Assembly (NCBI RefSeq): GCF_000828635.1
Contig: NZ_AP012547.1
Coordinates: 2,914,001 to 2,978,000 of the forward strand
Length of the DNA: 64,000 nt
From: Sulfuritalea hydrogenivorans sk43H
GTDB taxonomy: Bacteria > Pseudomonadota > Gammaproteobacteria > Burkholderiales > Rhodocyclaceae
Reading direction: 5' to 3'
The notes under the pieces are model-generated. The model made no database searches, was not told the DNA's origin, and was given only the letters and a program-made list of their open reading frames with translations. The translations under genes were made by a program, and so were the position numbers. Below, piece after piece: positions 3,908-64,000 of this stretch. Positions within the stretch are counted from its first letter, which is position 1. Each line of letters opens with the position of its first letter.

Positions 3908-4464
3908 GCAAGGAACACGCAAGCGAAATCGCCACCGAAGTTGCAACACTGGGCGGCGGCTGTTTCTGGTGCCTCGAAGCCGCCTTCGTGCAGCTCGCCG
4001 GTGTCGAATCGGTGGTCTCCGGCTATGCCGGCGGCCGGATGCAGAATCCCGATTACCGCAGCGTGTGCGGCGGCAACACCGGACATGCCGAGGTGGTAGA
4101 AGTGCGCTTCGATCCCGCCGTGATCGACTACCGCACACTGCTGCAGGCCTTCTTCGCCATCCACGACCCGACCACGCCCGACCGGCAGGGCAACGATGTC
4201 GGCAGCCAGTACCGCTCGGTGATATTCACCCACGACGCCGGGCAGGAGAGGGTCGCCCGCAGCCTGATCGAAGAGCTTGCCGCGGCGAAGACATGGCCCG
4301 ACCCGATCGTCACCGCCGTGTCGCCAGCGCCGACTTTCTGGCCGGCCGAAGATCATCACCAGAACTACTTCGCCAACAATCCGTACCAGGGATATTGCCA
4401 GGCCATCGTGGCGCCGAAAGCCGCAAAGCTGCGCAAGCTGTTTGTCGGCAAGTTAAAAAACTGA
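3904..4464 (+). CDS. msrA: Peptide methionine sulfoxide reductase A
   Basis: 186 residues. GGGCFWCLEAAF carries the catalytic Cys (about residue 20) in the GCFW motif. SGYAGG, GGNTGHAEVVEV and the C-terminal AEDHHQNYF are family signatures. The enzyme reduces methionine-S-sulfoxide in proteins, with recycling by thioredoxin. It is coupled to the methyltransferase before it. The segment SPAPTF near residue 140 is written with the recurrent word CCAGCGCCGACT, although here a similar peptide is native to MsrA. Confidence 0.95.
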   Translation: MSKEHASEIATEVATLGGGCFWCLEAAFVQLAGVESVVSGYAGGRMQNPDYRSVCGGNTGHAEVVEVRFDPAVIDYRTLLQAFFAIHDPTTPDRQGNDVGSQYRSVIFTHDAGQERVARSLIEELAAAKTWPDPIVTAVSPAPTFWPAEDHHQNYFANNPYQGYCQAIVAPKAAKLRKLFVGKLKN

Positions 4465-8209: not shown

Positions 8210-9883
8210 TCAGGCGTTGCAGGTGGCGCGGGCAACCGCCGCCTTGACCTTGCTTGCATCGAGCGTGCGCCAGCGCGCCGCGACATGCTGGTCGGGACGC
8301 AGCAGATAAACCGTGCCGGGCCTCGCGTCGTAGCGCTGGGCGGCGATGCCGCGCGGATCTTCGAGAACCGGAATGTCACCGGCACGACCCGGCCTGGCGG
8401 AAATCACCAGCGGCTGGACGGCGATTCCGTCGCGGGAGAGCCCTGCCAGCGCGGCAAGAGTCGGCGCCGGCAACACGGCGGCATCGTCGGTAAAGTAGAG
8501 CGCGAAGAACCGGTTGCCAACTTTTTCCAGCAGCCAGCCTTCATCGCCGTTGTCGCGCAGCGGCGCGTCGTCCATCGGCGCGCCGGGCAGCATGCGTCCG
8601 GCGAATGCGGAACCCGCCTCGTCCGGGGTGTTGAGGCTGGAGCCGGTGAGGAAAGCCGGCACCGAGAGCCGCCCCGAATTCACCAGGGCACGACCGAAGG
8701 CATGATCTTTTGCCAGGCCCAGCACGGCATTGCGGAAGGTCCGGCTGACCTTGCTCTTGGGCGTGATGAAATCGGTGGAGCGCGTCGAATTCATCAGGTT
8801 CTCGTCGGCGGCGAAGACGCGCTCCTCGGTGTAGCTGTCGAGCAGCTTCTCCGGCGCCTTGCCATCGATGACGAGTTTCAATTTCCAGCCCAGGTTGTCG
8901 GCGTCCTGCAGGCCCGAATTGGCGCCGCGTGCGCCGAAGGGCGAGACCTGATGCGCGGCGTCGCCGACGAACAGCACGCGGCCATGGTTGAAGCGGCTCA
9001 TGCGTCGACACTGGAAGGTGTAGACGCTGACCCATTCCAGCTCGAACTCTCTTTCATCGCCCAGCATCGCCTTGATGCGCGGCAGCACGTTCTCCGGCTT
9101 CTTTTCCTCCTCCGGATCGGCGTCCCAGCCCAACTGGAAATCGATGCGGAACACGCTGTCGGCCTGCTTGTGCAGCAGCACCGATTGCCCCGGATGGAAC
9201 GGCGGATCGAACCAGAACCAGCGTTCGGCCGGAAAATCGGCCTTCATCACCACGTCGGCAATGAGGAAGCGGTCCATAAAAATCTTGCCCTCGACTTCGA
9301 GGCCCAGCATGCGGCGAATCGGGCTGCGTGCGCCGTCGGCGGCGATCAACCAGTCGGTTTCGACGGTATAGAAACCATCGTCGGTCTCGACTTTCAACGT
9401 GACTGTCTTGCCGGTCTGGGTGACCGAGACCACCTTGTTCTTCCAGCGCAGTTCCACGTTCGGTCGCGAGGCGGCTCGCGTGGCCATGTATTCTTCGAGG
9501 TAGTACTGCTGCAGGTTCACCATGCCGGGGCGATGGTGATCCGGTTCCGGCACCAGGTTGAAGTTGTAGACTTCCTGGTCGCGAAAAAAGGTGCGCCCGA
9601 CGTTCCACGACACGCCCTTGTCGCAGACCGCCTCGCCGACGCCGTAGCGATCGAGGATTTCCAGCGCGCGCTTGGCGTAGCAGACGCCGCGCGATCCGAT
9701 CGAAACCGTGTCGTCTTCGTCCAGCAGCAGTACCGGAATGTCATGCAGTTGCAGGTCGAGCGCGGCGCCCAGACCGACGGGGCCGGCGCCAACCACCACC
9801 ACCGGCACTTTCAGCGTCTTGCCGGTGGCGATTTCCGGCGGTGTTCTGTACTCGAACCTGGGATAGTTGTAGGTCTTCAGCAT
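8210..9883 (-). CDS. FAD-dependent aromatic-ring monooxygenase (MhpA/PheA-like)
   Basis: 557 residues, the size of single-component flavin hydroxylases with a C-terminal thioredoxin-like domain. The FAD dinucleotide fold is VVVVGAGPVGLGAALDL (about residues 28-45), the DG motif is AADGARSPIRRML, and the GD motif is VLFVGDAAHQVSPFGARGANSG. Such enzymes hydroxylate phenols with NAD(P)H and O2, and paralogues act on 3-hydroxyphenylpropionate, 3-hydroxyphenylacetate or hydroxybenzoates. GGGAG lies 8 bases before the start. It is the second gene of the minus-strand cluster. The downstream hydrolase and isomerase suggest that the product is a para-diol, but the substrate is not identifiable. Confidence 0.82.
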   Translation of the reverse strand: MLKTYNYPRFEYRTPPEIATGKTLKVPVVVVGAGPVGLGAALDLQLHDIPVLLLDEDDTVSIGSRGVCYAKRALEILDRYGVGEAVCDKGVSWNVGRTFFRDQEVYNFNLVPEPDHHRPGMVNLQQYYLEEYMATRAASRPNVELRWKNKVVSVTQTGKTVTLKVETDDGFYTVETDWLIAADGARSPIRRMLGLEVEGKIFMDRFLIADVVMKADFPAERWFWFDPPFHPGQSVLLHKQADSVFRIDFQLGWDADPEEEKKPENVLPRIKAMLGDEREFELEWVSVYTFQCRRMSRFNHGRVLFVGDAAHQVSPFGARGANSGLQDADNLGWKLKLVIDGKAPEKLLDSYTEERVFAADENLMNSTRSTDFITPKSKVSRTFRNAVLGLAKDHAFGRALVNSGRLSVPAFLTGSSLNTPDEAGSAFAGRMLPGAPMDDAPLRDNGDEGWLLEKVGNRFFALYFTDDAAVLPAPTLAALAGLSRDGIAVQPLVISARPGRAGDIPVLEDPRGIAAQRYDARPGTVYLLRPDQHVAARWRTLDASKVKAAVARATCNA

Positions 9884-15001: not shown

Positions 15002-15763
15002 TCAGACCGGGTTGTCGATATCGACGAACTCGCACTCGATGCCGAACTTCTCCGCCAGGTGCGCACCCAGCGCCTGCACGCCATAGCGCTCGGTGGCGTG
15101 ATGGCCCGCGGCGATGAAGGCCATGCCGGTTTCGCGCGCGAGATGCACGGTCTGCTCGGATATCTCGCCCGAGACGAAGACGTCGGCGCCGATTGCCAGC
15201 GCGGCTTCGAAGTAATCCTGGGCGCCGCCGCTGCACCAGGCGATGCGCGCCACCTTGCGCGCCGGATCACCGATCAGCAGCGGCGCGCGGCCGAGGACCC
15301 GCTCCATGTGCGTTGCCAACTCACCCGCAAGAGTCGGCGCTGGCGGCACGCCGACGAAGCCGATGTCCTGTTCGGCGAAGCGCCCGTTGACCGTCCAGCC
15401 GAGGCGCTGTGCCAGTTGCGCGTTGTTACCCAGGACGGGATGGGCATCCAGCGGCAGGTGGTAGGCGAACAGGTTGATGTCATGCGCCAGCAGGCGCGCC
15501 ATGCGCTGCCTGCGAAAGCCCGTGACGCGGCCGTCTTCGGACTTCCAGAACCAGCCGTGATGCACCAGCAGCGCATCGGCCCCGCGCTGGATGGCGGCCT
15601 CGATCAGGGCATGGCTGGCGGTCACGCCGCAGACGATGCGCCCGATCCGTTCGCGTCCTTCCACTTGCAGGCCGTTTGGGCAATAATCGCGGAAACGTGC
15701 GGCTTCCAGCAGAGCGTCCAGATAGGCGCGAAGGTCTTCACGTAACAGTGCATCGCTTGGCAT
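15002..15763 (-). CDS. Nif3-like dinuclear metal-centre protein (YbgI family)
   Basis: 253 residues. [32 protein letters not shown] and [16 protein letters not shown] carry the paired His/Asp/Glu residues that bind two metals in YbgI. The molecular function of the family is unsettled; GTP cyclohydrolase type or metallochaperone roles have been proposed. An ATG at 15763 was preferred to the GTG one codon earlier. The gene is divergent from the HtrA protease. The segment [12 protein letters not shown] contains the recurrent DNA word CCAGCGCCGACT in coding orientation. Confidence 0.85.
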
Positions 15764-26125: not shown

Positions 26126-26520
26126 CAGGACTTCTGCACTTCGACGGCGGCAGGGGAATCGACCGTCGGGGCCGCCACAAGCTCCGTCGCCGATGCAGCC
26201 TCGGGAGTCGGCGCTGGCGAGACGGCGAGTTCCGTCAGCGGGGCGACGGCGGTGTTGACGGAAGATTCCACTTCGCGCATTTCGTGTGTCACCGAGGCTT
26301 CGAGGCCTTTCACCTGATCGGTTACCTGCTGCTGCATCTTCTTCAGTTCATCGAGCTGAATCTCGCGATTGATGTCGGACTTGACGTCGCTGACATAGCG
26401 CTGCAAACGGCCGAGCAGGAGACCCGCCGTGCGTGCCACCTTGGGCAGGCGCTCGGGGCCGATGACGACCAGCGCCACGACGGCGATCACCATCAACTCG
26501 GAAAGGCCGACGTCGAACAT
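26125..26520 (-). CDS. tatB: Twin-arginine translocase subunit TatB
   Basis: 131 residues: [31 protein letters not shown] is the TatB transmembrane helix and GPxRLP hinge, followed by the amphipathic helix. The C-terminal tail from about residue 95 is low-complexity Ala/Pro/Thr. It includes SPAPTPE, encoded by the recurrent word CCAGCGCCGACT in coding orientation. TatB partners TatC in signal-peptide binding. Confidence 0.93.
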
Positions 26521-30962: not shown

Positions 30963-32024
30963 ATGAGCCGCTTCTGGAGCGATGTCGTCAAGGGCCTTAC
31001 GCCCTACGTGCCGGGCGAGCAACCCAAGCTCGCCAACCTGGTGAAACTCAACACCAACGAGAACCCCTACGGGCCGTCGCCGCGTGCGCTGGAAGCGATT
31101 CGCGCCGCCACCGGGGAATCGCTCAAGCTATACCCCGATCCGAACGCCGAGCAGCTCAAGGCTGCCATTGGCAAGTACCACGGCATCGGCGCGCAAAATG
31201 TCTTCGTCGGCAACGGCTCGGATGAAGTCCTGGCGCACATCTTCCTCGGCTTGCTGAAGCAGTCGCGACCGATCCTGTTCCCCGACATCAGCTACAGCTT
31301 CTATCCGGTGTATTGCGGGCTGTACCAGGTGGACTTCGAAACCATTCCGCTCGCGAACGATTTTTCGATTCGGCTGGGCGACTACGCCAAGCCGAACGGC
31401 GGCATCATTTTCCCCAACCCCAACGCGCCGACCGGTTGCCTGGTGCCGCTGGTCGAGATCGAACGCCTGTTGCAGTCGAACCCCGATTCGGTCGTGGTAA
31501 TCGACGAGGCCTATGTCGATTTCGGCGGCGAGAGCGCGATTTCGCTGACCGCTCGCTACCCCAACCTGCTGGTGGTGCAGACACTCTCCAAGTCGCGCTC
31601 GCTGGCCGGGCTGCGCGTCGGCTTCGCGGTCGGCCATGTCGATCTGATCGAGGCGCTGGAACGGGTCAAGAACAGCTTCAATTCCTATCCGCTGGACCGG
31701 CTGGCGATAGCGGGTGCGGTCGCCGCCATCGAAGACCGCGAGTATTTCGACAAGACCTGCAAAGCGGTGATCGCCACGCGCGAAAAACTGGTCGGCGACT
31801 TGAAGGCGCTGGGTTTCGAGGTGCTGCCGTCGGCGGCCAACTTCATCTTCGCCCGCCATCCACAACACGACGCGCAAGAGTCGGCGCTGGCGCTACGGCG
31901 ACGCAGCATCATCGTGCGCCATTTCAAGCTGCCGCGCATCGAGCAGTTCCTGCGGATTACGGTCGGTACGGACGAACAATGCGACGCGCTGGTAGCGGCG
32001 CTGAAGGAAATCCTCGGCGCTTGA
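30963..32024 (+). CDS. hisC: Histidinol-phosphate aminotransferase
   Basis: 353 residues of a fold-type I PLP enzyme: [43 protein letters not shown] and the PLP lysine in [17 protein letters not shown]. It transaminates imidazole-acetol phosphate. The gene is on the plus strand, divergent from hisB, whereas in related betaproteobacteria hisD-hisC-hisB run one way. It therefore needs its own promoter in the 101 bases before it. Confidence 0.95.
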
Positions 32025-34307: not shown

Positions 34308-34527
34308 GAATGATGCTGAGTCATATGGTGATTCGCAGTGAAGGTGAAGGGCAGCAACCCGCAGGGCGGAAGCGCATGAGGCGGCGGCCTGTCCCCGACC
34401 TGCGGGGCGCGCAAATCAAAACCTGAAAGTCGGCGCCGGCGGTACGGCGGTTAACCGTGCCGCAATCCTTCCGCCCAAAGCGTACCAGTGGAAAGCGGGT
34501 GGCATGCGCGATGCGCAGTCCTGTTTC

Positions 34528-35279: not shown

Positions 35280-36575
35280 CTAAGGCTTGATGCGCAGCTC
35301 CGCCGCGCGGGCGTGGGCCGTGAGCCCTTCGCCATGCGCCAGTGTCGCGGCGATCGGCCCCAGGGTTTGCGCGCCGGCCTGTGACACCTCGATCAGGCTG
35401 GAACGCTTCTGGAAGTCATAGACGCCCAACGGCGATGAAAAGCGTGCACTGCGCGAGGTCGGCAGCACGTGGTTGGGGCCGGCGCAGTAGTCGCCGAGCG
35501 ATTCCGACGCATAGTGGCCGACGAAAATCGCGCCGGCATGGCGAATCTTTTCCGCCAGCGGCGCCGGATCGGCCACCGCCAGTTCCAGGTGTTCCGGCGC
35601 AATGCGGTTGGCCAGGGCGCAGGCTTCGTCGAAATCGGCCACATGTATCAGTGCGCCGCGTCCCTTGAGCGAGGCGGCAATCACTTCACGGCGCGGCATG
35701 GTCGGCAGCAGCTTCTCGATGCTTGCCGCGACCCGCGCGATGAAATCGGCATCCGGACTCAGCAGGATCGACTGCGCCAGTTCGTCGTGCTCGGCCTGGG
35801 CGAACAGATCGATCGCCACCCAGTCGGGATTGGCCGAGGCGTCGGCGATGATCAGCACTTCGGACGGACCCGCCACCATGTCGATGCCGACCGTGCCGAA
35901 GACGCGGCGCTTGGCTGCCGCGACATAGGCGTTGCCGGGACCGACGATCTTGTCCACCTGCGGGATGGTTTGCGTACCATAGGCCAGCGCCGCAACGGCC
36001 TGCGCACCGCCGATGGTGAAGACGCGATCGACGCCGGCGAGGCACGCGGCCGCCAGCACCAGCGCGTTCTTTTCGCCACGCGGAGTGGGCACCACCATGA
36101 TCAGCTCATTGACGCCCGCCACCTTGGCCGGCAGGGCGTTCATCAATACCGAACTGGGATAGGCCGCCTTGCCGCCCGGCACGTAAAGGCCGACGCGATC
36201 CAGCGCCGTAACCTTCTGCCCGAGTCGAGTGCCGTCGGCCTCGGTGAAGCTCCACGACTCGAGCTTCTGCCGCTCGTGGTAGTCGCTGACCCGCTTCGCC
36301 GCGGCTTCAAGCGCGGAGCGCTGGGCCGCCGGCAGGCCATCCAGCGCCCGTCGCAATTCGCTTCTCGGCAGTTCGAGTTCGGCCATGGTGCCGGCATCGA
36401 GCTGGTCGAAGCGGCGCGTGAATTCGAGCACCGCCGCATCGCCTTCCGTGCGCACGCGCTTGAGAATTTCGGCCACCGTCTGTTCGATGGCGTCGTCGGT
36501 CGAATGATCGAAATGCAGCAGGGCATCGAGTGTCGCGGCAAAACCGGAGTCGGCGCTGGAGAGACGGCGAATCAT
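35280..36575 (-). CDS. hisD: Histidinol dehydrogenase
   Basis: 431 residues from [22 protein letters not shown]. The NAD-binding and zinc-site signatures are present: [56 protein letters not shown] and GPNHVLPT. It oxidises histidinol to histidine. The start overlaps the hisG stop (ATGA). A CCAGCGCCGACT word lies in the fourth to ninth codons, but in a different frame (SADS) from most copies. Confidence 0.95.
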
Positions 36576-37217: not shown

Positions 37218-38721
<1,504 letters not shown>

Positions 38722-44592: not shown

Positions 44593-46074
44593 TTGACCTC
44601 ATCCGACAGCAAAATCGAGTTGCTGATCGTCGACGATGACCCGCTGATCGCCGACGCACTGGGCTATTTTCTCGGCCGTGACTACGCCGTAAGCACCGCA
44701 TCGACGCGCAGCGAGGCGATCGAATTGCTGCGCGGCGGGAAAGCCGCCCCTGCCCTGGCATTGATCGACCTCGGCCTGCCGCCCACGCCCCATCGTCCGG
44801 ATGAAGGTTTCGCCCTGATCGCCGACATCCTCGCCCATGCGCCGGAAACCCGGATCGTGGTGCTGTCCGGCCAGAGCGACGAGCTTAATGCGCGTCATGC
44901 GCGAGCGCTCGGCGCAACCGAGTTCGTGGCGAAGCCGGCGGATCCGGAATACCTGCGCAAGCTGATCCGCCGCGTGTTGTCTTTTAGAGACACGTCGCCG
45001 GAGATGGATGACGGCCTCATCGGCGACAGCGCCCCACTGCAAAAACTGCGGGCCCAGCTCAGGCAGTTCGCACGTTCGCCCTTCCCGGTGCTGATCGAAG
45101 GCGAGTCGGGCAGCGGCAAGGAACTTGCCGCCGCAGCCCTGCACCGGCTCTCCGAGCGCGCCGCGAAGCCGTATCTGGCGCTCAACTGCGCCGCGATCTC
45201 GCCCAGCCTGGTGGAAGCCACGCTGTTCGGCCACAGCAAGGGGGCATTCACCGGTGCCAGCGGCCCGCGAACGGGTTATTTCGAGGACGCGTCGGATGGA
45301 ACGCTGTTTCTCGATGAAATCGGCGAACTTCCCCTCGATCTGCAGCCAAAACTCCTGCGCGTGCTTGAAAACGGCGAATTCCAGCGCATCGGCGAGACCC
45401 AGGCGCGCCACTCGGCCGCGCGCATCGTCACGGCAACCAACCGCGACCTGAAGAAAGAAGTTCGCGAAGGGCGCTTCCGCGCCGACCTGTACCACCGGCT
45501 GTCGGTATTCACGATCGCCATACCGCCGCTGCGGGATCTCGGCGACGATCGCATCCGCCTGCTCGAACACTTTCGTTCGGTCTACGCGGCACAGGCCAAC
45601 CTGCCGCGTTTCTGGCTCACCACGGAAGCGACGGAACGCCTGCTGGCCTACCGGTTCCCGGGAAATGTCCGTGAATTGCGCAATATCGCGATTCGCCTGA
45701 CGACCAAGTTTGCCGGCGAGGAGGTCGGCATCAAGGAGCTCGAAGCCGAACTGGATCCCGGCAATGAGACCCATGCAATCGGCGTCCCGCCAGCGCCGAC
45801 TCTGATGGCCGGCGATGAACTCGTATCGATTGCCCTGAACGATATCCAGGACCACCGCGACTTCAACCTCGACGCCACCCTGCGACGCTGGGAAGAAGCC
45901 TACATCGAAGCCGCGCAGCAGGTCGCCCATGGCAATATGAGCCAGGCAGCGCGACTGCTCGGCATAAACCGCACCACGCTTTACAATCGCATCGACACGC
46001 TGGCCCGGGAAAGCGCGGCTTCTGTGAAGGCCAACGCCGGCTTGAGTGGCGTCAAGCAAAGCGGCCGCAACTGA
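44593..46074 (+). CDS. NtrC-type sigma54-dependent response regulator
   Basis: 493 residues from a TTG just before DSKIELLIVDDDPLIADALGYFLG; an ATG-less extension to 44467 is open, so the start is uncertain. Receiver phosphorylation site: LALIDLGLP. The AAA+ domain has Walker A GESGSGKE, an intact GAFTGA loop (HSKGAFTGASG) and LFLDEIGELP. The C-terminal Fis-type HTH is MSQAARLLGINRTTLYNRI. It should activate sigma54 promoters in response to an unlinked sensor kinase. The linker at about residue 400 contains [13 protein letters not shown], encoded with the recurrent word and nearly identical over 23 bases to the Nif3-like gene. Confidence 0.85.
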   Translation: MTSSDSKIELLIVDDDPLIADALGYFLGRDYAVSTASTRSEAIELLRGGKAAPALALIDLGLPPTPHRPDEGFALIADILAHAPETRIVVLSGQSDELNARHARALGATEFVAKPADPEYLRKLIRRVLSFRDTSPEMDDGLIGDSAPLQKLRAQLRQFARSPFPVLIEGESGSGKELAAAALHRLSERAAKPYLALNCAAISPSLVEATLFGHSKGAFTGASGPRTGYFEDASDGTLFLDEIGELPLDLQPKLLRVLENGEFQRIGETQARHSAARIVTATNRDLKKEVREGRFRADLYHRLSVFTIAIPPLRDLGDDRIRLLEHFRSVYAAQANLPRFWLTTEATERLLAYRFPGNVRELRNIAIRLTTKFAGEEVGIKELEAELDPGNETHAIGVPPAPTLMAGDELVSIALNDIQDHRDFNLDATLRRWEEAYIEAAQQVAHGNMSQAARLLGINRTTLYNRIDTLARESAASVKANAGLSGVKQSGRN

Positions 46075-49571: not shown

Positions 49572-50965
49572 GCCTGCTCATGGACGCCCTCAAGAAAGCC
49601 GAACTGGCGAAACGCCAGGGGCAAGGCGAGAATGCGGGCAGCCCGCCGGAAGCGCCGGCCCAGGGCGGATTTACGCTTGAACCCCTGCATGACTCGGGAA
49701 CACGCGGGGCCGCGATACCCGAGCCGGTCGCCGAGAGTGGCTCGGGTTCCGGAAATCTGCCGCACCTGCCTTCGCATCTTGAAGAACTCGACGCCCAGTT
49801 TCTTGCCGAAGCCAAGCAGGCTGCGTCGGCACGCTTGAAGGCGCCACCACCGCCGGCACCGCCGCGCGAACCGGCCGCCGAGCCAGCGGCCGCTGTTGCC
49901 GACACCCCCGCCTTGACGGCGGCGGCGGTCAAGCCCCGGCCCGCTGCAACCAGGCAAAGTGCGCCGCAGAATCAATCGGCAGCCCAGAACCTGTTTGCCG
50001 CCAAGCAAGCCGACAAGCCGCCGGCACGGAAAAACTTTGCCATTGCCATTGGCGTGCTGACCGTGCTTTCCGTATGCGGCATCGGTGGATATTTCTGGTG
50101 GCAATTGCAGCCAAAGACACCCCTCCTCGCCAACCGGATGGCGCTGCCGCCTCCGTCCGCCACCCCGACTGCCGCTTCGAGGCCTGCCGCCGTAGCGCCA
50201 GCGCCGACTGTTGCCACGCCACCCGCTGCTGCTCCGGGTTCCGCGCCAACAGGGGCACGTCCGGCCGCGCAGCCAGCGGACGAGGAAGACGATGATACTG
50301 CCCCGGTTGCCGCCAGGGCGGCGGCCCAGCCCCGTCGCACAGCCCCCCCCGCACCGGCCGAAGCCGATGGTCCGATACGCGTCACCAGGGCGCCGCTGAA
50401 GGTCAATCCCGCCTTGATCGGCGGCTTCGATGCCTTCAATCGGGGAGACCTCGCTTTGGCGCAACGCGAATACGAACGCGCCCAGCGGGCCGACCCGCGC
50501 AACACCGATGCGCTGCACGGTCTGGCTGCCATCGCCGTACGGCAGGGCCACCTCGACCAGGCCGAGTTGCTGTATCGGCGAATCACGGAGGCCGATCCGC
50601 ATGATACGGTGGCCATGTCCGCCCTGATCAACATGCGCGGGCAGATCGATCCCGGTACCGCGGAAAGCCGGCTGAAGACCCTCTCGGCCGACCAGCCCGA
50701 CCTCGCCGCACCCCAGTTTTCCCTGGGCAACCTCTATGCGCGACACGGCCGCTGGAACGAGGCTCAACAGGCTTATTTCCGGGCCCACAACGCCGAGCCG
50801 GATAATCCCGACATCATTTACAACCTCGCGATCAGCCTCGAACACTTGCGCCAGAACAAGCTCGCCGCGCAGTACTACAGCCAGGCCATCGCCGCCGCGC
50901 AAACCCGGACAGCCGGTTTCGACAAGGCCCAGGCTGCTGCAAGACTGCGCTCCCTGCAGCCCTGA
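49568..50965 (+). CDS. mshN: MshN-like TPR protein
   Basis: 465 residues: MSLLMDALKKAELAKRQGQ is the typical MshN/GspB N terminus. There is a membrane helix near residues 158-176 (FAIAIGVLTVLSVCGIGGYFWW), long Ala/Pro-rich linkers, and TPR repeats from about residue 280 (GDLALAQREYERAQRADPRNTDALHGLAAIAVRQGHLDQAELLYRRI). It is likely periplasmic, aiding secretin or pilus assembly. One linker carries APAPTVA encoded by the recurrent DNA word. Confidence 0.83.
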   Translation: MSLLMDALKKAELAKRQGQGENAGSPPEAPAQGGFTLEPLHDSGTRGAAIPEPVAESGSGSGNLPHLPSHLEELDAQFLAEAKQAASARLKAPPPPAPPREPAAEPAAAVADTPALTAAAVKPRPAATRQSAPQNQSAAQNLFAAKQADKPPARKNFAIAIGVLTVLSVCGIGGYFWWQLQPKTPLLANRMALPPPSATPTAASRPAAVAPAPTVATPPAAAPGSAPTGARPAAQPADEEDDDTAPVAARAAAQPRRTAPPAPAEADGPIRVTRAPLKVNPALIGGFDAFNRGDLALAQREYERAQRADPRNTDALHGLAAIAVRQGHLDQAELLYRRITEADPHDTVAMSALINMRGQIDPGTAESRLKTLSADQPDLAAPQFSLGNLYARHGRWNEAQQAYFRAHNAEPDNPDIIYNLAISLEHLRQNKLAAQYYSQAIAAAQTRTAGFDKAQAAARLRSLQP

Positions 50966-52744: not shown

Positions 52745-52796
52745 CCGCCCGGCGGCACCGCGCACCCCCGCACGCAATTTCGCCCGCATCCCGATC

Positions 52797-55558: not shown

Positions 55559-55589
55559 GGGATGCGGTGAGAAACAGGGTGGGAGACGC

Positions 55590-56653: not shown

Positions 56654-56661
56654 ACGAGATC

Positions 56662-59151
56662 ATGAGCGGGTCGCGCCGGAGCCCCTTGCCGCGCCGCGCC
56701 GGCGAAAGCGGTTTCGTGCTGATCGCGCTGATTGCGCTGCTCGCAATGGGCGGGCTGTATTTCTTCATCAGCAATCTCTCGCCGGAGCTAATGCGCGCGC
56801 GCCACCAGCAGACCACCAACGAGGCTTTGACGCAGGCGCGCGAGGCATTGATCGGCTATGCAGTGAGGTTTCGCGAAGATCAGTTGAAGACCGGCACCGC
56901 GGGTCAGGTCTATGGTTATTTGCCGCTACCCGATCTCGGCAGTTCCCGCAATCAGAATGCAACGGATGTTGATTGCTACTTGAAGGAGGGCTGCGAGGCC
57001 TACAACTTCGCCGGCAATGGGTCCAATGTCACGGTGATCGGCCGCTTCCCCTGGCGCACCCTGGGTACCGGGCCGCTCAGGGACAGTCACGGCGAATGCC
57101 TCTGGTATGCGGTATCCGGCAGCCACCAGCGCATCCAGCAGGCCAGCCCGATGAACTGGGATACCCTGAGCCAGATGGATGTCGTCGTCGCCAACGGCAC
57201 CGCAGCAATGATCAGCGCCGTCGCTTCGGCCCACGATCGCCCCATTGCCGTCATCTTCTCGCCAGGACCGCCGCTGACGGGCCAGGATCGCAGCGCCTCG
57301 ACGACCGACAGCGTGACCGAATGCGGAGGCAACTATGTCGTCGGCAACTACCTGGATCCTGTCGTTGCGACAAATCTGGGGGGCATCACCAACTATCTGG
57401 CCGGCTCGACCAACAATGCAAGCGGCGACACATCGGCCGCGAACAAGTCCTTGTCGGCGGGCGGCATAATCAACCGCCGCAGCGACGGGGCGCTCTGGGC
57501 CGGGAACTGCGCGTCGAACGACCCCTTGCCTTGCACACTGGTCGCCAACGATGCCGGGGCCACAGTCACCAGCGAACTGCTGTTCCGCACCCTGCGCGGA
57601 TCGAGCTATTTCCGCACCGACATCAACGCCATGCTCGACCGCATGGCCACCTGCCTGCGCGACCAGGTTGCGGCAGGCACCGGTTTCACGCCCGATGCGC
57701 TGAGCGGTTTCACTGCCCCTGCCGACAAAACCGTCGGCCGCATCCCGAGCAGCACCTGCTATGACGATGCACAGAATCCGCTTGGTTACTTCAGCCACTA
57801 CCGCGACCAGGTCTTCGTCGCTTCGAAGATTGCCAGCGATTTCACGGCGACTGTTGATGGAGTTGCCCAGACCTGTCCGGCGGTAGTCATGTTCGCCGGC
57901 CAGCGCGGCAGCGGCCAAGCGCGGGGAACAAGCGCCGAGCGCAATGCTCCAGCCAATTATCTCGAAGGCACCAACCTGACCGGCTTCATCACCACAGGCG
58001 CACTGAACTTCAGCGGGCCCAGCCTGCTCGCCCAGGTATCGAGCAGCCAGTCCGCAAGTCAGGACATCGTGCGTTGCATTCCAAGCGGAGCCAACCTGAC
58101 CACGGTCGAGTCGCCGAACCTGAGCGCGGCACAACAACTGGTGGCTTACGACGCGGCAACCGGCACGCTGACGCTGGGCAAGGAAAATGTCACGAACTTC
58201 ACCGCGGATTCGGCCGCCCTGTTCGGTTGTGCCTGGATCGCAGATGAGAAGACGCTCGGCTCGGGATTGCGCAGCTACTTCCAGTTTTCATTTGCGACAC
58301 TCGGAACCAGCGTCGGCAATACCGGCTTCGTCTTTGCGTTGATAGATACGGAAAGCAACACCTCCCTGCCCTGTGGCTCTGCCGGAAGCCATCTCGGCTA
58401 TTCGGGTAACAACAGTTTTACTCCCAAGCTGCGCTCCCCCAAGGTCGGTATCGAGTTCGACCAGTCACGCAATTCCGGCTTCCCAGGCTTTAGTGGCGAG
58501 ACGTCGACAGCGGTCGGGCGCAATGATCCCTGCTACCTCTCCAGCTGCGGCGCCATCCCGGCGCAAACCGCCAGCTCTCACTCTGCGATTGTCTATTGGG
58601 GTCATGAAGCCGCCAATGCCACCGACGTGGTCACGCTCCCCGATGGCGATGACAACGTGCATGGCTTTCCAACTGCCGGCAGCATCGCCACGGTACGCCG
58701 CCCGCCACGCAACCCGGACACGCCGCCGGGTATCGAGTTCGTAAATTTGCGTACCGGCGGCCAGTTGTTCCACGTCCGGGTCGAGATAACACCGACGCGT
58801 GCCATCGACCCGGCGGCGGAGTTGAGCAAGACCACCCTGCAAACCAAGGTCTGGATTCTTCCCGACAGCGTCACCGTGGCGAACCAGATCACCGCCATGA
58901 AGGACACCACGCGCCCCATGAGCCTGCTCTACCCGACATTCACTGAAACGCTCGGTGATACCGCACGTGTGTTCGATGTCGGCGGATCTGCCTGCAGTTC
59001 CGGAAGCTGTCCGACCAACCAGACCTGCGGCACGGACAACATTTGCTATCGTCAAGGGCTGCGCAAGACCAGGCTTGGTTTTACAGGCTCGCAGCGCACG
59101 CAGGATCAGGAAGTACGAATCAGCAACATGTTCACTACGTGGCTGCCATGA
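56662..59151 (+). CDS. Large type IV prepilin-like protein with lectin-like C-terminal domain
   Basis: 829 residues. The leader ends at Gly17 (RRAGESG|FVLIALIALLAMGGLYFF), a prepilin peptidase site and hydrophobic helix, but position 5 of the mature chain is Ala instead of Glu, as in tip-type minor pilins. The middle (about 60-500) is Cys-containing and unassigned. Residues about 530-820 look like an L-type lectin/concanavalin fold (FQFSFATLGTSVGNTGFVFALIDTESN, LRSPKVGIEFDQSRNSG, IEFVNLRTGGQLFHVRVEITP). It is probably a tip adhesin of the MSHA-like pilus. The stop overlaps a 45-codon frame. Confidence 0.7.
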   Translation: MSGSRRSPLPRRAGESGFVLIALIALLAMGGLYFFISNLSPELMRARHQQTTNEALTQAREALIGYAVRFREDQLKTGTAGQVYGYLPLPDLGSSRNQNATDVDCYLKEGCEAYNFAGNGSNVTVIGRFPWRTLGTGPLRDSHGECLWYAVSGSHQRIQQASPMNWDTLSQMDVVVANGTAAMISAVASAHDRPIAVIFSPGPPLTGQDRSASTTDSVTECGGNYVVGNYLDPVVATNLGGITNYLAGSTNNASGDTSAANKSLSAGGIINRRSDGALWAGNCASNDPLPCTLVANDAGATVTSELLFRTLRGSSYFRTDINAMLDRMATCLRDQVAAGTGFTPDALSGFTAPADKTVGRIPSSTCYDDAQNPLGYFSHYRDQVFVASKIASDFTATVDGVAQTCPAVVMFAGQRGSGQARGTSAERNAPANYLEGTNLTGFITTGALNFSGPSLLAQVSSSQSASQDIVRCIPSGANLTTVESPNLSAAQQLVAYDAATGTLTLGKENVTNFTADSAALFGCAWIADEKTLGSGLRSYFQFSFATLGTSVGNTGFVFALIDTESNTSLPCGSAGSHLGYSGNNSFTPKLRSPKVGIEFDQSRNSGFPGFSGETSTAVGRNDPCYLSSCGAIPAQTASSHSAIVYWGHEAANATDVVTLPDGDDNVHGFPTAGSIATVRRPPRNPDTPPGIEFVNLRTGGQLFHVRVEITPTRAIDPAAELSKTTLQTKVWILPDSVTVANQITAMKDTTRPMSLLYPTFTETLGDTARVFDVGGSACSSGSCPTNQTCGTDNICYRQGLRKTRLGFTGSQRTQDQEVRISNMFTTWLP

Positions 59152-59285
59152 TATTCGCCGTCCCGCCACGGCTGACTTTCGAGCACAATGCCGATCTGCA
59201 GTTGAAGTGGGTCGTCGGCCCCGATCCCTCCGCGGACGCGCAAGCAATAATCGTGGAAGGCCCCTTGCCAGGCTCCCAGACTTGA
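59148..59285 (+). CDS. 45-residue hypothetical protein between two prepilin genes
   Basis: The ATG overlaps the stop of the large prepilin (ATGA). The product, MIFAVPPRLTFEHNADLQLKW followed by VVGPDPSADAQAIIVEGPLPGSQT, has no signal peptide, membrane helix or known motif. The stop lies 13 bases before the next gene, whose AGGAGG ribosome-binding site follows. Tight coupling and lack of any other gene in the gap favour a real short gene, but it could be a spacer or a remnant of a longer domain. Confidence 0.4.
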   Translation: MIFAVPPRLTFEHNADLQLKWVVGPDPSADAQAIIVEGPLPGSQT

Positions 59286-59298
59286 TTTAGGAGGAAAG

Positions 59299-60102
59299 TT
59301 GAAGCTGATCCATTCCCAACGTGCAGGCTCTCTACACAGAGGGGTCGTCCGACCGAAGCCGGTCTCCTCCCAGCGCGGCTTCACGCTGATCGAGCTCGCC
59401 GTCGTGATGTTCATCGTCACGCTTCTGTTGGGCGGCATGTTGCTGCCGTTGTCCGGACAGCAAGATATCCGCAACCATGGCGATACGCAGAAGACCCTCG
59501 CGGAAGCACGTGACGCCCTTCTCGGATTTGCCATGGCCAATGATCGCCTGCCCTGTCCGGCCACCGCGGCCAGCAACGGAGTGGAAAGCCCCGTCGGCGG
59601 CGGTGTATGCACCAATCCCTACGACGGCTTCTTTCCCGCGGCCACGGTGGGACTGTCACCGGTCGACGCGCAAGGCTATCTTCTCGATGGCTGGGGCGGC
59701 GAAACCATTCGACGCGTACGCTATGCGATCAGTACGGCAAACACCAGCGCTTTCACCACCCAGAACGGGATGAAAACCACCGGAATCACGGTATTGGCGC
59801 CAGACCTGAAGGTCTGCAGTACGGGCGTCGGCATGGCCACTCCGGGAACCGCGACAGCGGCCTGTGCGGCAAATACCGCGCTTTCCACCGACGCCGTTGC
59901 CGTCATCTATTCGATCGGCAAGAACGCAGGCACGGGCGGCGCCGGCACCGAGGAAAACCACAACCCCAATCCACAATCGACCCTCGCCGCCGACCCTGCC
60001 TTTGTCAACGCACCGCAAGGCACCGCGTTCGACGACCAGATGCTGTGGCTGTCCAAGAGCACGCTGTTCAACCGCATGGTCGCTGCCGGAAAATTGCCCT
60101 GA
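59299..60102 (+). CDS. Type IV prepilin-like protein
   Basis: 267 residues with a TTG start behind AGGAGGAAAG. The leader is unusually long (27 residues) and ends in QRG|FTLIELAVVMFIVTLLLGGMLLPL, with Glu5 of the mature pilin present. The mature protein (about 240 residues) has Cys pairs (LPCPATAA...GGVCTNPYDG, KVCSTGV...AACAANT). GWGGETIRRVRYAIS is reminiscent of pseudopilin C-terminal regions. It is the last gene of the pilus cluster; no prepilin peptidase gene was seen in the window. Confidence 0.78.
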   Translation: MKLIHSQRAGSLHRGVVRPKPVSSQRGFTLIELAVVMFIVTLLLGGMLLPLSGQQDIRNHGDTQKTLAEARDALLGFAMANDRLPCPATAASNGVESPVGGGVCTNPYDGFFPAATVGLSPVDAQGYLLDGWGGETIRRVRYAISTANTSAFTTQNGMKTTGITVLAPDLKVCSTGVGMATPGTATAACAANTALSTDAVAVIYSIGKNAGTGGAGTEENHNPNPQSTLAADPAFVNAPQGTAFDDQMLWLSKSTLFNRMVAAGKLP

Positions 60103-60103
60103 T

Positions 60104-60149
60104 CCGGCAAAAGTCGGCGCTTGCCGGCCCGCGAAGCGGAATTCCCGGC
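60104..60149. repeat. Stem-loop repeat, copy C (extragenic, after the prepilin gene)
   Basis: Immediately after the prepilin stop, CCGGCAA (60104-60110) pairs with TTGCCGG (60121-60127) across a loop containing AGTCGGCGC. The same GCCGG (60123-60127) can instead pair with CCGGC (60145-60149), enclosing the conserved 17-mer CCCGCGAAGCGGAATTC (60128-60144), itself a CCGC-GAA-GCGG hairpin. The two pairings exclude each other. The 17-mer is shared with copies at 61342-61398 and 63271-63327. Confidence 0.7.
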
Positions 60150-60255
60150 AGACAAGGTCCGACACGGCGATCTGCTTATACCCGTCATCACATTTCCTGA
60201 ATCCACCGCGCCGCGCCGCCGGTAGAATCGGCGCATCCACTTTCGGGAGTTCGCC

Positions 60256-60945
60256 GTGTCCAAGACCTTCAGGATCGCCCCCAGCATTCTTTCCGCCAAC
60301 TTCGCCCGGCTCGGCGAGGAAGTCGACAACGTACTCGCCGCCGGCGCCGACATCGTGCACTTCGATGTCATGGACAACCACTACGTGCCCAACCTGACCA
60401 TCGGCCCGCTGGTCTGCGAGGCGCTGAAGAAGCACGGCGTCACGGCGCCGATCGACGTGCACCTGATGGTCAAGCCGGTCGACCGTATCATCCCCGACTT
60501 CGCCAAGGCCGGCGCCACCTACATCACCTTCCATCCGGAAGCCTCGGAACACGTCGACCGCACCATCGCCCTGATCCGCGAATGCGGCTGCAAGCCGGGC
60601 CTGGTGTTCAACCCGGCCACCCCGCTCGACGTGCTGGAATACACGCTGGACAAGCTCGACATGGTGCTGCTGATGTCGGTCAACCCCGGCTTCGGCGGGC
60701 AGAAGTTCATCCCCTACGTGCTCGACAAGGCACGCAAGGTGCGCCAGATGATCGATGCACGCGGCCTGAACGTCAGCCTCGAAATCGACGGTGGCGTCGG
60801 CCCGGCGAACATCCTGGAAGTGGCGCAGGCCGGGGTCGATACCTTCGTCGCCGGCTCGGCCGTATTCGGCGCCGCGAAGGACAGCGACCCGCACCGCTAC
60901 GACACGGTGATCGGCGCGCTGCGCGCCGAACTCGCAAAAGCCTGA
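60256..60945 (+). CDS. rpe: Ribulose-phosphate 3-epimerase
   Basis: 229 residues with a GTG start after [55 protein letters not shown] carries the metal His/Asp ligands. [26 protein letters not shown] and [12 protein letters not shown] complete the TIM-barrel active site. It interconverts ribulose-5- and xylulose-5-phosphate. It stands alone here and converges on the MerR gene with no gap. Confidence 0.95.
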
Positions 60946-61422
60946 TCAGGCCTTGCGCGCGCGGCGTTTCGCCGCCAGGGACTTCTTGAGCTGGGTGCGA
61001 ACCTCACCCAGTTCAGCGAGCATGGCCGCGATGTTGCCGAGCCGCGTCTCGAGCTCTGTCATCGTCGTATCAATGCGGCCGACCAGGTACTCGAGCTGCT
61101 TTGCGTGCCCCTCGCCATGGTCGCCATACAGCGACAGGATGTGCTCGATCTCGGCCAGTGACATGCCCACCGCCTTGCCGCGCAGGATCAGGCCCAGCCG
61201 CACCCGGTCGCGCCGCGTATAGGCCCGGCCGCCGTTGATGCGGCACGGCGCCAGCAGCCCCTTGTCCTCGTAGAAACGGATCGCGCGCAGCGAGATGCCG
61301 AATTCCCGCGCCAGTTCGGTGATGCCATGGAGTTCGCTGTCAGTCGGCGCTGGCTCGCTTTGCGTGCCCGGGATTCCGCTTCGCGGGCGGGCAACGGCGG
61401 CGCGTTGTGTCTTCGCTTTCAT
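60946..61422 (-). CDS. MerR-family regulator (LiuR-like) with a repeat-encoded N-terminal extension
   Basis: 158 residues. The MerR winged helix begins only near residue 33 (HGITELAREFGISLRAIRFYEDKGLLAPCRINGGRAYTRRDRVRLGLILRGKAVGMSLAEIEHIL), then a coiled dimerisation helix and a basic tail. Residues about 9-28 (ARPRSGIPGTQSEPAPTD) come from a DNA repeat also present in the downstream carboxylase gene. No in-frame start lies between the repeat and the HTH. The neighbours and divergent promoter suggest control of the reductase/carboxylase operon, as LiuR controls branched-chain acyl-CoA catabolism. Confidence 0.8.
   Translation of the reverse strand: MKAKTQRAAVARPRSGIPGTQSEPAPTDSELHGITELAREFGISLRAIRFYEDKGLLAPCRINGGRAYTRRDRVRLGLILRGKAVGMSLAEIEHILSLYGDHGEGHAKQLEYLVGRIDTTMTELETRLGNIAAMLAELGEVRTQLKKSLAAKRRARKA
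61342..61398 (-). repeat. Stem-loop repeat, copy A (inside the MerR gene)
   Basis: 57 bases on the minus strand matching copy B at 63271-63327 at 50 of 57 positions. It contains the outer stem GCCCG/CGGGC enclosing CCCGCGAAGCGGAATCC, then a spacer and CAGCGCCGACT. It is translated in frame near the MerR N terminus. The outer stem's fourth base pair is C-G here, T-A in copy B and G-C in copy C, so pairing is conserved while sequence varies. Confidence 0.85.
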
Positions 61423-61484
61423 TGCCCCATCCTAACAAGCCGCGCTCTCGCTTTCAAGATAAATATTCCTTTATAGAGATGATG

Positions 61485-61513
61485 TTGACGTTAACGTAAG
61501 CACTCGGTAGCAT
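61485..61513 (+). promoter_or_regulatory. Divergent promoter with MerR-type palindrome
   Basis: TTGACG (61485-61490), a 17-base spacer and TAGCAT (61508-61513) form a sigma70-like promoter for the reductase/carboxylase genes. The perfect palindrome ACGTTAACGT (61488-61497) overlaps the -35 box. Its place between the MerR gene and its likely target, and its resemblance to LiuR-type sites, suggest the operator. The operator role is inferred. Confidence 0.5.
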
Positions 61514-61561
61514 GTACCGAAACAAGCCGGCGCATGACTGGCCACGCAAGGAGAACGACGC

Positions 61562-62464
61562 ATGAGCAGCGCCGAAACCAAGGACGGAGAACCCTTTTCC
61601 CGCTACGCCAGCGTGCTGCGCCCCCGCCTCTTCGCCGGCGAAGTGCATTGGGTCACCGGCGGCGGCAGCGGCATCGGCCGCTGCGTCGCGCATGAGCTCG
61701 CCGCGCTCGGCGCCACGGTGATCCTCACCGGGCGCAGCGCCGACAAGCTGCAACAGGTGGCCGCGGAAATCACCGAGGACGGCGGCCGCGCCGAATTCGC
61801 CGCCTTCGACATCCGCGACGAAGACGCGGTCCGGGCATCGGTACAGGAGGCGGTGGGCCGCCATGGCCGCATCCACGGCCTGGTCAACAACGCCGGCGGG
61901 CAGTTCCCCTCGCCGCTGATGGCCATTGGCAAGAAGGGCTTCGAGACAGTGCTGGCCAACAACCTGACCGGCGGCTTCCTGATGATGCGCGAGCTCTACC
62001 TGCAATCCATGCAGACCCACGGCGGCGCCATCGTGAACATGACCGCCGACATGTGGAACGGCATGCCGGGCATGGGCCACTCGGGCGCCGCGCGCGCCGG
62101 CATGGCCAACCTGACCAAGACCGCCGCCGTCGAATGGGCCGCCAGCGGCGTGCGCGTCAATGCCGTGGCGCCCGGCTGGATCGCCTCCGCCGGGCTCGAT
62201 ACCTACAAGGGCCCGGTGCGCGAAATGATTCCGAAGCTGAAGAAGCACGTGCCCTTGCGTCGCCTCGGCACCGAATCCGAAGTCAGCGCCACGATCTGCT
62301 TCCTGCTGTCGCCGGGCGCGGCCTTCATCACCGGCGTCACGCTGGCCATCGACGGCGGCGCACCGCTCGACACGCCGCTGTTTCCGATCCCGGACCACAA
62401 GCGCTCGGTACCCTTCGATGGCTTCCATCGCGCCGTGATGCCGGACGTGCTGAAGGAACCCTGA
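61562..62464 (+). CDS. PECR-like short-chain dehydrogenase/reductase (trans-2-enoyl-CoA reductase type)
   Basis: 300 residues. The nucleotide fold is VTGGGSGIGRCVAHELAALGATVILTGR, and NNAGG is present. The usual YxxxK catalytic pair is absent: the segment reads HSGAARAGMANLTKTAAVEW, a pattern seen in peroxisomal trans-2-enoyl-CoA and dienoyl-CoA reductases. FLLSPGAAFITGVTLAIDGG is also like those enzymes. It probably reduces an unsaturated acyl-CoA. A similar SDR accompanies geranyl-CoA carboxylase in terpene-degrading pseudomonads. Its stop overlaps the carboxylase start by one base. Confidence 0.75.
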   Translation: MSSAETKDGEPFSRYASVLRPRLFAGEVHWVTGGGSGIGRCVAHELAALGATVILTGRSADKLQQVAAEITEDGGRAEFAAFDIRDEDAVRASVQEAVGRHGRIHGLVNNAGGQFPSPLMAIGKKGFETVLANNLTGGFLMMRELYLQSMQTHGGAIVNMTADMWNGMPGMGHSGAARAGMANLTKTAAVEWAASGVRVNAVAPGWIASAGLDTYKGPVREMIPKLKKHVPLRRLGTESEVSATICFLLSPGAAFITGVTLAIDGGAPLDTPLFPIPDHKRSVPFDGFHRAVMPDVLKEP

Positions 62465-64000
62465 TGCCGCGGCTGACCTCCCTGCTCGACACGGGTTCGG
62501 CAGCCTTCGCCGCCAATGTCGCGCGCATGAGCGAGCGGCTCGCCGAGGTGCGCACACTGGAACAGAAGGTGCGCGAGGAGTCGGCATCGAAGCGCGACAA
62601 GTTCGAAAAGCGCGGCCAGTTGCTGCCGCGTGAGCGCGTCGCGCGCCTGCTCGATCGCGGCAGCGACTTCATCGAATTCGCCACGCTGGCCGGCCTCGGC
62701 ATGCACGACGACGACGGCAGTACGTCGGTGCTCGGCGGCGGTTCCATCATCGGCATCGGCACCGTCAGCGGCAAGCGCTGCGTGGTGATGGCCAGCGACA
62801 GCGCGATCAAGGGCGGCACCATCCCGCCGATGGGTTTGAAGAAGAGCCTGCGCGCGCAGGAGATCGCCCGCGACAACCGCCTGCCGCTGCTCTACCTGGT
62901 CGAAAGCGGCGGCGCCAACCTGATCTACCAGTCGGAAATCTTCATCGAGGGCGGTCGCAGCTTTGCCAACCAGGCGCGGCTTTCCGCCGCCGGCATTCCG
63001 CAGATCGCCGTGGTGCACGGCGCCTCCACCGCCGGCGGCGCCTATCTGCCGGGGCTATCCGACTACGTGATCCTGGTGCGCGGGCGCTCCAGCATCTATC
63101 TGGCCGGGCCGCCGCTGGTCAAGGCAGCCATCGGTGAAGACGTGGACGAGGAGTCGTTGGGCGGCGCCGAGACCCACGCCGGCGTCACCGGCCTGGGCGA
63201 GTACCTTTGCGAGGACGATGCCCATGCGCTTGCCATGGCACGCGAAGTCATGGATAAACTCAACTGGAACGCCGTTGCCTGCCCGCGAAGCGGAATTCCA
63301 GGCACGCAGAGCGCAGCAGCGCCGACTTTTTCATCCCCGCACTTCCCTGCCGGGGAGTTGATGGGACTGGTCCCCGCCGACGAGCGCGAGCCCTACGACG
63401 TGCGCGAAGTCATCGCGCGCCTGGTCGACGCCTCCGACTTTCTCGAATTCAAGGCCACCTACGGCAGCGACACGATCTGCGGCCACGCCCGCCTGCACGG
63501 CCACACGGTCGGCATCCTCGGCAACAACGGCCCGATCCAGCCCAACGGCTCGACCAAGGCCGCGCAATTCATCCAGCTTTGTGACCAGAGCAATACGCCA
63601 TTGATCTTCCTGCAGAACACCACCGGCTACATGGTCGGCTCCGTAGCCGAGCGGGCCGGGGCGATCAAGCATGGCTCGAAGATGATCCAGGCCGTGGCCA
63701 ACGCCCGCGTGCCCAAGCTCACCGTCGTGCTCGGCGGCTCTTACGGCGCCGGCAACTACGGCATGTGCGGCCGCGGCTTCGATCCGCGTTTCATTTTCTC
63801 GTGGCCCTCGGCGCGCACCGCCGTCATGGGCGCGGCGCAGGCGGCAAAGGTGATGGAAATCGTCGGCCGCGCCAAGCTCGAACGCGCCGGACAACCCGCC
63901 AACGAAGCGGCGCTGGCCGCCATGAGCGAAGGCCTGCGGCTGCGGCTGGAGAAGGAATCCTCGGTGCTGTTCGGTACCGCGCGCATGTGGGACGACGGCA
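62464..64000 (+). CDS. Acyl-CoA carboxylase carboxyltransferase (beta) subunit, 3' end missing
   Basis: About 512 residues are present and the frame is open to the window end. N-terminal carboxyltransferase domain: KFEKRGQLLPRERVARLLDRGS, AIKGGTIPPMGLKKSLRAQEIA, LVESGGANL, GASTAGGAYLPGLSDY. C-terminal domain: ILGNNGPIQPNGSTKAAQFIQLCDQ, FLQNTTGYMVG, GSYGAGNYGMCGRGFDPRF. The substrate could be methylcrotonyl-, geranyl- or a related branched acyl-CoA; the SDR partner favours an Atu-type terpenoid path. Between the domains, residues about 270-289 are encoded by stem-loop repeat copy B. Confidence 0.87.
   Translation, partial: MPRLTSLLDTGSAAFAANVARMSERLAEVRTLEQKVREESASKRDKFEKRGQLLPRERVARLLDRGSDFIEFATLAGLGMHDDDGSTSVLGGGSIIGIGTVSGKRCVVMASDSAIKGGTIPPMGLKKSLRAQEIARDNRLPLLYLVESGGANLIYQSEIFIEGGRSFANQARLSAAGIPQIAVVHGASTAGGAYLPGLSDYVILVRGRSSIYLAGPPLVKAAIGEDVDEESLGGAETHAGVTGLGEYLCEDDAHALAMAREVMDKLNWNAVACPRSGIPGTQSAAAPTFSSPHFPAGELMGLVPADEREPYDVREVIARLVDASDFLEFKATYGSDTICGHARLHGHTVGILGNNGPIQPNGSTKAAQFIQLCDQSNTPLIFLQNTTGYMVGSVAERAGAIKHGSKMIQAVANARVPKLTVVLGGSYGAGNYGMCGRGFDPRFIFSWPSARTAVMGAAQAAKVMEIVGRAKLERAGQPANEAALAAMSEGLRLRLEKESSVLFGTARMWDDG
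63271..63327 (+). repeat. Stem-loop repeat, copy B (inside the carboxylase gene)
   Basis: 57 bases matching copy A at 50 of 57 positions. The outer stem GCCTG/CAGGC encloses CCCGCGAAGCGGAATTC, followed by a spacer and CAGCGCCGACT. It is read in frame as AVACPRSGIPGTQSAAAPT at the linker between the two carboxyltransferase domains, a site likely to tolerate extra residues. Confidence 0.85.

Follow-up and report, generated by a model that had tools for sequence, protein, structure and literature searches.

The chromosome of Sulfuritalea hydrogenivorans sk43H (genome G000; 3,802,648 bases, one contig) contains a 26-bp motif, here called U, that is repeated hundreds of times, and a 36-bp double hairpin, here called H, that appears to be mostly an insert in U and lies there in either orientation. 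Both are present in the window, a stretch of 64,000 nucleotides (NZ_AP012547.1, positions 2,914,001 to 2,978,000) in which an initial annotation had noted a stem-loop repeat. Judging from sequence, we consider it probable that U constitutes a signal system in the Rhodocyclaceae similar to DNA uptake sequences (DUS) and that H is a mobile hairpin with a preference for U. U appears to share the sequence-level features of uptake signals that were tested, the lengths of outgroup sequences being mixed, and it is referred to as DUS-like rather than as a DUS.

Sequence, copy number and origin of motif U

The consensus of U is RRAAGTCGGCGCYGGCGRYACGGCGA, with an information content of about 32 bits. 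Its information profile stops sharply at both edges, and there is almost no conservation beyond positions -3..+23. A weight matrix was applied to a 464-kb sample, consisting of the window and 20 genome stretches taken at roughly even steps, and yielded 94 sites of 18 bits or more, with none in the reversed control. Scaled to the whole genome, this corresponds to about 770 copies. The complete genome contained 386 exact units (control, 0) and 707 units with up to two mismatches (control, 3). Searching it for the two ends of the motif returned 274 forward and 283 reverse matches (reversed pattern, 5 and 12), and nearly all of the 100 matches listed had a spacing of 22 bp. In a k-mer count performed without a seed on 400 kb, AGTCGGCGCTG was the most overrepresented 11-mer (58 occurrences versus 0.68 expected). 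Overrepresentation of one word throughout the genome and on both strands, a feature of DUS and of uptake signal sequences (USS), is therefore a property of U.

Sixty-five of the 94 sites were coding, 25 intergenic and 4 partial, in a sample that is 85.6% coding; these placements derive from our own crude gene calls, at least one of which (over a carboxyltransferase) was wrong. Genic sites were oriented along the gene in 36 cases and against it in 29. Two peptide frames were preferred, KVGAG.TA (25 sites) and AV.PAPT (17 sites). Mostly genic copies together with enrichment in noncoding DNA are a further DUS/USS feature that was found for U.

The motif was present in all 25 genomes of the genus in which it was tested, at 4 to 386 exact copies, and was at chance level in most sister genera. 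Three genus genomes, G001, G044 and G015, contained 194, 225 and 217 copies, respectively, of a form with AGTTGG (AGTTGGCGCYGGCGNNACGGCG), which occurred 0 to 4 times in 28 other genus genomes. The usual form was found 26 times in G001 and 35 times in G015. At orthologous positions, AGTTG in G044 corresponded to AGTCG in its partner in 24 of the 24 comparisons in which the partner retained a U that scored and had the same length, although these represent few distinct sites. The three genomes have switched genome-wide to AGTTGG. A one-base change coordinated across orthologous sites requires a trans-acting reader of U. When the family was surveyed with up to two mismatches, more than 50 copies were found in 13 of 121 genomes; G321 had 35, the rest had 0 to 20, and controls had 0 to 6. 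Variants in G321 were AGTCGACG and AGTCGACGCTGG, U ended in ACGGCA in G050 and G180, and G278 had a looser form. Restriction to a lineage with dialects in relatives, again a DUS/USS feature, thus applies to U as well. Forty stretches of viral contigs (L172-L211) carried one exact U copy apiece; they are possibly prophages of U-bearing hosts.

Whether a motif arose by insertion is reflected in the length of orthologues that lack it. The orthologous DNA compared around the window came from 11 genus genomes. Seventy-eight U copies gave 394 orthologous comparisons, of which 279 had U, 23 were intermediate and 92 were scored as U-less. Fifty-eight of the U-less orthologues, coming from 4 of 36 distinct sites, were identical in length to the U-bearing sequence, 31 were longer and 3 were shorter (by 6, 25 and 47 bp). 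The longer ones included 8 with 21 bp and 4 with 111 bp more, which are other inserts, and 6 longer by over 1,000 bp, probably owing to mapping. As for the shorter ones, U was present after all in the 25-bp case, where mapping had cut it off, and the 47-bp case, with 9 bases left, was uninformative. At site 31879, U-less outgroup genera were equal in length in 10 of 10 alignments (9 genomes).

Eleven U sites in 10 proteins, chosen as conserved-looking, were also compared with homologues of solved structure. In the best alignment, the residues encoded by U were ungapped at nine sites, namely, those in DNA polymerase I, RecG, MsrA, MurA, a 2-hydroxyacid dehydrogenase, an ABC exporter, a quinone oxidoreductase (where a gap of one residue lies immediately outside), an E2 acyltransferase (lipoyl domain) and RsmI. 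At the remaining two, the E2 linker and an NAD(P)H-hydrate repair enzyme, the homologue was longer, in the latter by one residue. This speaks against insertion, because an inserted U would give the opposite gap. The DNA polymerase I gene (L291:16728-19697, plus strand) contains two U sites, one of them over the start of IVSADYSQIELR, the catalytic motif A of the enzyme. The gap test thus points to an origin by point mutation when solved homologues and the four genus sites are considered, with mixed outgroup lengths; overall, U does not look inserted.

Fold of module H and its insertion into U

The initial annotation had described three stem-loop copies in the last 4 kb of the window, two of them within genes, with a fourth arm pair that is G-C, C-G or T-A. 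Their positions, arms and variable pair were borne out, and copies 2 and 3 lie in open frames. The 15-mer CCCGCGAAGCGGAAT was found without mismatch at 60128-60142 (+), 61373-61387 (-) and 63282-63296 (+). With up to two mismatches, the window still gave 3 matches, compared to 0.53 expected, and 3 or more were reached in 2 of 100 shuffles. Two further features were absent from that annotation. The first hairpin is succeeded by a second, smaller one, CGC-AGA-GCG, which covaries as well, and all three stem-loops of the window sit within a longer unit, AGTCGGCGC...ACGGCG, in one orientation or the other. Ten further copies of this unit in the window, identical or almost identical at their ends, lack the hairpin and have only 7 bp separating the two ends (Table 1).

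H consists of six-pair arms around CCGC-GAA-GCGG, followed by a mini-hairpin of three pairs whose loop is ARA. The 15-mer CCCGCGAAGCGGAAT occurred 20 times in the S. hydrogenivorans genome and 321 times across the genus, in 28 of 31 genomes; the reversed control gave 0 in both cases. The fold was evaluated using a set of 97 copies (80 distinct 41-mers), of which 88 were aligned in 71 distinct rows. The other nine had been excluded by eye before counting: AAT was missing behind the core in four, and in five an arm was displaced, the tail was disrupted or a further module came next. In the 71 distinct rows, 97.0% of the cells were paired versus 86.5% in shuffles, 98 cells were changed on both sides versus 28.4, and the covariation score was 0.315 versus 0.124; none of these values was reached in any of 500 shuffles. 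With all 97 copies included, 1,210 of 1,261 cells were paired (96.0%). Sliding the partner by 1 to 3 columns left at most 38% of the cells paired. It should be noted that shuffles are optimistic for related sequences, whereas the slid controls retain relatedness, and that the inner stem is invariant in this set because the search had fixed it. The proposal that the fold itself is maintained is thus supported by compensated changes and by the loss of pairing in the slid controls. Many further copies with covarying arms, which the initial annotation had suggested looking for, were found, and neither of the outcomes that it had named as refuting, only three copies in the genome or ordinary conserved coding DNA, was observed. 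Folding energies of the three single window copies were no better than those of shuffled sequences (z, -0.74 to 1.05), so that it is covariation that carries the structural claim. We take the GCGAAGC within the core to be an unusually stable mini-hairpin of single-stranded DNA. The H consensus is free of stop codons in all six frames; variants with GTTACC have one TAA, on the other strand.

A covariance model of H found at least 26 copies in the S. hydrogenivorans genome and, in 249 other genomes of the order, one lower match of 43.8 bits. No match was obtained in the U-bearing genomes G050, G180 and G278 (E value up to 1e-4, strict filters). This narrow range suggests that H is younger than U or more restricted.

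To relate the two elements, 27 to 48 bp around the H core was excised and the highest-scoring U spanning the joint was recorded, with a threshold of 18 bits. Thirteen of 21 exact-core copies in the S. hydrogenivorans genome restored U, in every case when exactly 36 bp was removed; the restored U was on the strand opposite the hairpin in 8 of them and on the hairpin strand in 5. Elsewhere in the genus, 35 of 75 copies restored U, 29 of these at 36 bp; the control at random positions gave 1 of 60. In copy 1, excision of 36 bp created a U of 36 bits. The corresponding sites were also inspected in relatives. For copy 3, 13 of 27 loci were alignable, with a plain U in 9, H in 1 and neither by threshold in 3, and 8 of the 9 plain-U relatives were exactly 36 bp shorter (a span of 28 versus 64 in the window). 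A plain U was found in 3 of 4 alignable relatives for copy 1 and in 1 of 11 (G022) for copy 2. Outside those alignments, H was present at copy 2 in L216 (genome G024) and at copy 3 in L225 (genome G015). The dispersed element postulated by the initial annotation is therefore an insert whose 36 bp are missing from orthologous sites of relatives. In the AGTT-dialect genomes, 9 of 10 U halves beside H were also AGTT (12 loci inspected).

H may not be the only hairpin to enter U. Relatives have other hairpin-like inserts in U or in its halves, of 21 bp (e.g., TTCCCGCGGGGACGCAGAGCG), of 27 bp and longer, and these suggest that small hairpins in general may use U as an insertion hotspot. In the S. 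hydrogenivorans genome, a structural scan of the 464-kb sample for the tail mini-hairpin gave 15 matches, of which 4 were H, compared to 7 in the reversed sequence, so there is no clear excess of other modules of this type beyond H. A longer repeat, AAAGCCCCTGCG...AGCAAAAGACGCT...CGCCG...GGATGACG, was noticed in L291 (minus strand) and L378, with similar letters in L051; in L291 it comes after the left half of a U. C/G-rich repeats of about 110 bp (CCCC...TTC...GGGAAGGGGG) were inserted in three relatives (L264, L265 and L266) just after the position of the window U at 36548.

Table 1. Copies of U and H in the window, other hairpin inserts in relatives, and pilus- or secretion-like genes
Feature	Position	Strand	Context
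U split by H (copy 1)	60112..60169	+	Form A (hairpin strand = U strand); intergenic
H of copy 1	60122..60157	+	Net length 36 bp; exact ends uncertain within a few bases
U split by H (copy 2)	61342..61399	-	Form B (hairpin strand opposite U); in frame, MerR gene
U split by H (copy 3)	63270..63327	+	H on +, U on - (form B); in frame, carboxyltransferase gene
Short U without hairpin	4314..4335	-	msrA gene
Short U	8459..8480	+	
Short U	15332..15353	+	
Short U	26206..26227	+	
Short U	31879..31900	+	Aminotransferase gene (Pfam)
Short U	34428..34449	+	
Short U	36548..36569	+	U-less genus members of equal length
Short U	38256..38277	-	murA gene; further hairpin inserts within it in some relatives
Short U	45780..45801	-	U-less genus members of equal length
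Short U	50188..50209	-	
Other hairpin inserts			murA site: L259, L260, L261, L265; elsewhere: L223, L297, L230, L319
Secretin	47691-49571		Pfam
T2SSE/MshEN ATPase	51020-52744		Pfam
Protein with prepilin methylation motif	59299-60102		Pfam; directly before copy 1

According to Pfam, copy 1 is preceded by the gene with the prepilin methylation motif, which ends at 60102, and is followed by a ribulose-phosphate epimerase gene starting at 60256. By the same criterion, the host genes of copies 2 and 3 are a MerR regulator (60946-61422, minus strand) and a carboxyltransferase frame starting at 62464 (plus strand). Genes resembling those of pilus or type II secretion systems extend over 47691-60102, up to copy 1; no Pfam match was obtained for 56662-59151. 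The encoded proteins are candidates for DNA binding. A search of 56000-64000 against Rfam gave no family above its gathering score, with three weak matches (E value, 0.077 to 2.8) far below it, and no tRNA or tmRNA was found in the window.

Explanations for U and H

The explanation that we favor would work as follows. A putative receptor, presumably at the cell surface, would favor U-bearing DNA. Such preferential uptake, together with recombination, would then push point mutations toward U at hundreds of genic and intergenic sites on both strands, and a shift in receptor preference would let the whole set drift to a new dialect. H would insert mostly at the center of U, facing either way. By adding 36 bp, it keeps reading frames intact, and its compensated arms imply that a folded strand (RNA or single-stranded DNA) plays a part in its spread. 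The sequences demonstrate the motif and its copy number, the absence of empty sites of unit size, the dialects, the covariation of H and its insertion into U as a 36-bp step. The uptake function, the receptor and the mode of H movement are what we infer from the sequence patterns described above. Since U could be an entry point of single-stranded DNA and H needs a folded strand, one may speculate that H inserts during DNA uptake.

A number of observations weigh against this explanation. The genus evidence from equal lengths depends on the four sites mentioned above, and the selection of conserved-looking proteins limits the comparison with solved homologues. Outgroups were 9 to 12 nt longer at site 36548 (3 of 3) and 15 to 18 nt shorter at the murA site (8 of 8); neither difference has the length of a unit, but the shorter murA outgroups are compatible with a small, ancient insertion and argue against a pure substitution origin at that site. 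The distribution of U scores is bimodal with few intermediates, as young copied elements would also look, although USS share this property according to Redfield and colleagues (2006; PMC1626085). One genus genome, G016, had only 4 exact U copies, and neither a de novo matrix nor k-mers (L455-L461) recovered U from it; G016 may represent loss of the signal, another dialect or a misplaced genome. ComEC was found in 26 of 26 genomes tested, with and without U. It allows competence and was uninformative as a discriminator of U-bearing genomes. As for H, 8 of the 21 copies in the S. hydrogenivorans genome fell below the threshold as U inserts, one of them at 17.1 bits, so that U is not an obligatory target, and no enzyme for H was found.

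The main competitor is that U is the site of a chromosomal DNA-binding protein involved in organization, segregation, methylation or a similar process. A strong genome-wide motif would be expected, and the dialect switches imply a trans-acting recognizer in this case too. However, the strands are balanced, as the forward and reverse counts demonstrate, and the 100 forward sites listed, 36% of the 274, span the first 36% of the chromosome, which leaves no replichore bias in that part. We know of no set of binding sites that is as long, as numerous and as predominantly genic. About 770 copies, mostly genic and located even in a catalytic motif, resemble USS and DUS as portrayed in the literature cited below. 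We therefore regard a chromosomal binding site as unlikely, albeit the strongest of the alternatives. Less plausible still is the proposal of the initial annotation, in which H is a repetitive extragenic palindromic (REP) element, a bacterial interspersed mosaic element or a REP doublet forming a hairpin (REPIN), moved in trans by a REP-associated tyrosine transposase (RAYT). H does share with these elements a palindromic repeat, a maintained fold and many dispersed, covarying copies, occasionally in tandem or inverted arrangement, and the genome has one Y1 transposase gene. This sole Y1 gene found, however, is flanked by GGGGACAG-type (AAACCGGGGACAG) repeats; the 3.3-kb locus contains a single U and lacks H, and linkage of H to a RAYT was rejected on these grounds. 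In addition, H sits mostly inside another motif, in both orientations and with a 36-bp step, and this host motif does not itself look inserted. REP elements are mostly intergenic; of the three window copies of H, two are genic and one is intergenic.

It is very improbable that U and H form a 58-bp mobile composite and that short U copies are what was left once H had been lost. H is flanked by U halves and both elements occur in the same genus, but about 770 U copies face at least 26 copies of H, and in 8 of 9 plain-U relatives the copy 3 site is exactly 36 bp shorter. No U-less orthologue among the comparisons was shorter by one unit, and equal-length U-less orthologues largely refute the composite. 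G050, G180 and G278, moreover, have abundant U with no match to the H model under the settings given above. Conserved coding DNA of the ordinary kind, or chance given the high GC content, can be virtually dismissed as an explanation: the words are GC rich and two of the three window copies are genic, but reversed-pattern controls gave 0 for H and 0 to 3 for U in this genome, and U is found on both strands, in several frames and between genes.

Going beyond the DUS-like reading of U, several Rhodocyclaceae genera might represent a third lineage with uptake signals and dialects, on which H would be specialized, parasitizing or modulating self-recognition; we put this forward tentatively, as somewhat less than an even chance. 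To our knowledge, which agrees with published abstracts, two bacterial families are known to have DNA uptake signals. A search of the open-licence literature, with subscription journals outside its range, returned no paper linking a DNA uptake sequence with Rhodocyclaceae, none joining an uptake sequence with Rhodocyclales and none containing the core 13-mer. If the interpretation is true, U in the Rhodocyclaceae, with at least four sequence variants, would offer an independent replicate for studying why and how uptake signals evolve, and discovery of the receptor could be approached by matching dialects to variation in minor pilins. H raises a second question, namely, how a covarying double hairpin of 36 bp can insert, in both orientations, into one particular 26-bp sequence.

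Comparison with known systems

As a short, dispersed hairpin with compensated arms, H is similar to REP and REPIN elements with their RAYTs (PMC3116915). Unlike them, it has no matching RAYT, is a 36-bp insert into U in both orientations, is lineage restricted and lies in frame inside genes in two window cases. REP elements are taken here in their usual definition. Rickettsia palindromic elements are hairpin-forming inserts that are kept in frame within protein genes. H resembles them in both respects but is shorter (36 bp), is a double hairpin and prefers a specific preexisting target.

A DUS is 10 to 12 bp long, compared to 26 bp for U. Frye (2013; PMC3630211) describes DUS and their dialects in the Neisseriaceae. 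U is like these DUS in being overrepresented genome-wide, lineage restricted, diversified into single-base dialects and both genic and intergenic. It differs in having about 770 rather than thousands of copies, in belonging to the Rhodocyclaceae, in its hairpin inserts and in having a putative receptor where the Neisseriaceae have ComP. For USS, Redfield and colleagues (2006; PMC1626085) demonstrated by a gap test that they are not insertions; the same authors state that the consensus strength of USS and DUS resembles that of young transposons and that both are enriched in noncoding DNA, with many copies genic. U is comparable to the USS of the Pasteurellaceae in its very strong consensus, its origin by substitution according to the gap test and its roughly two-thirds genic placement. 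It is of a different sequence and much longer.

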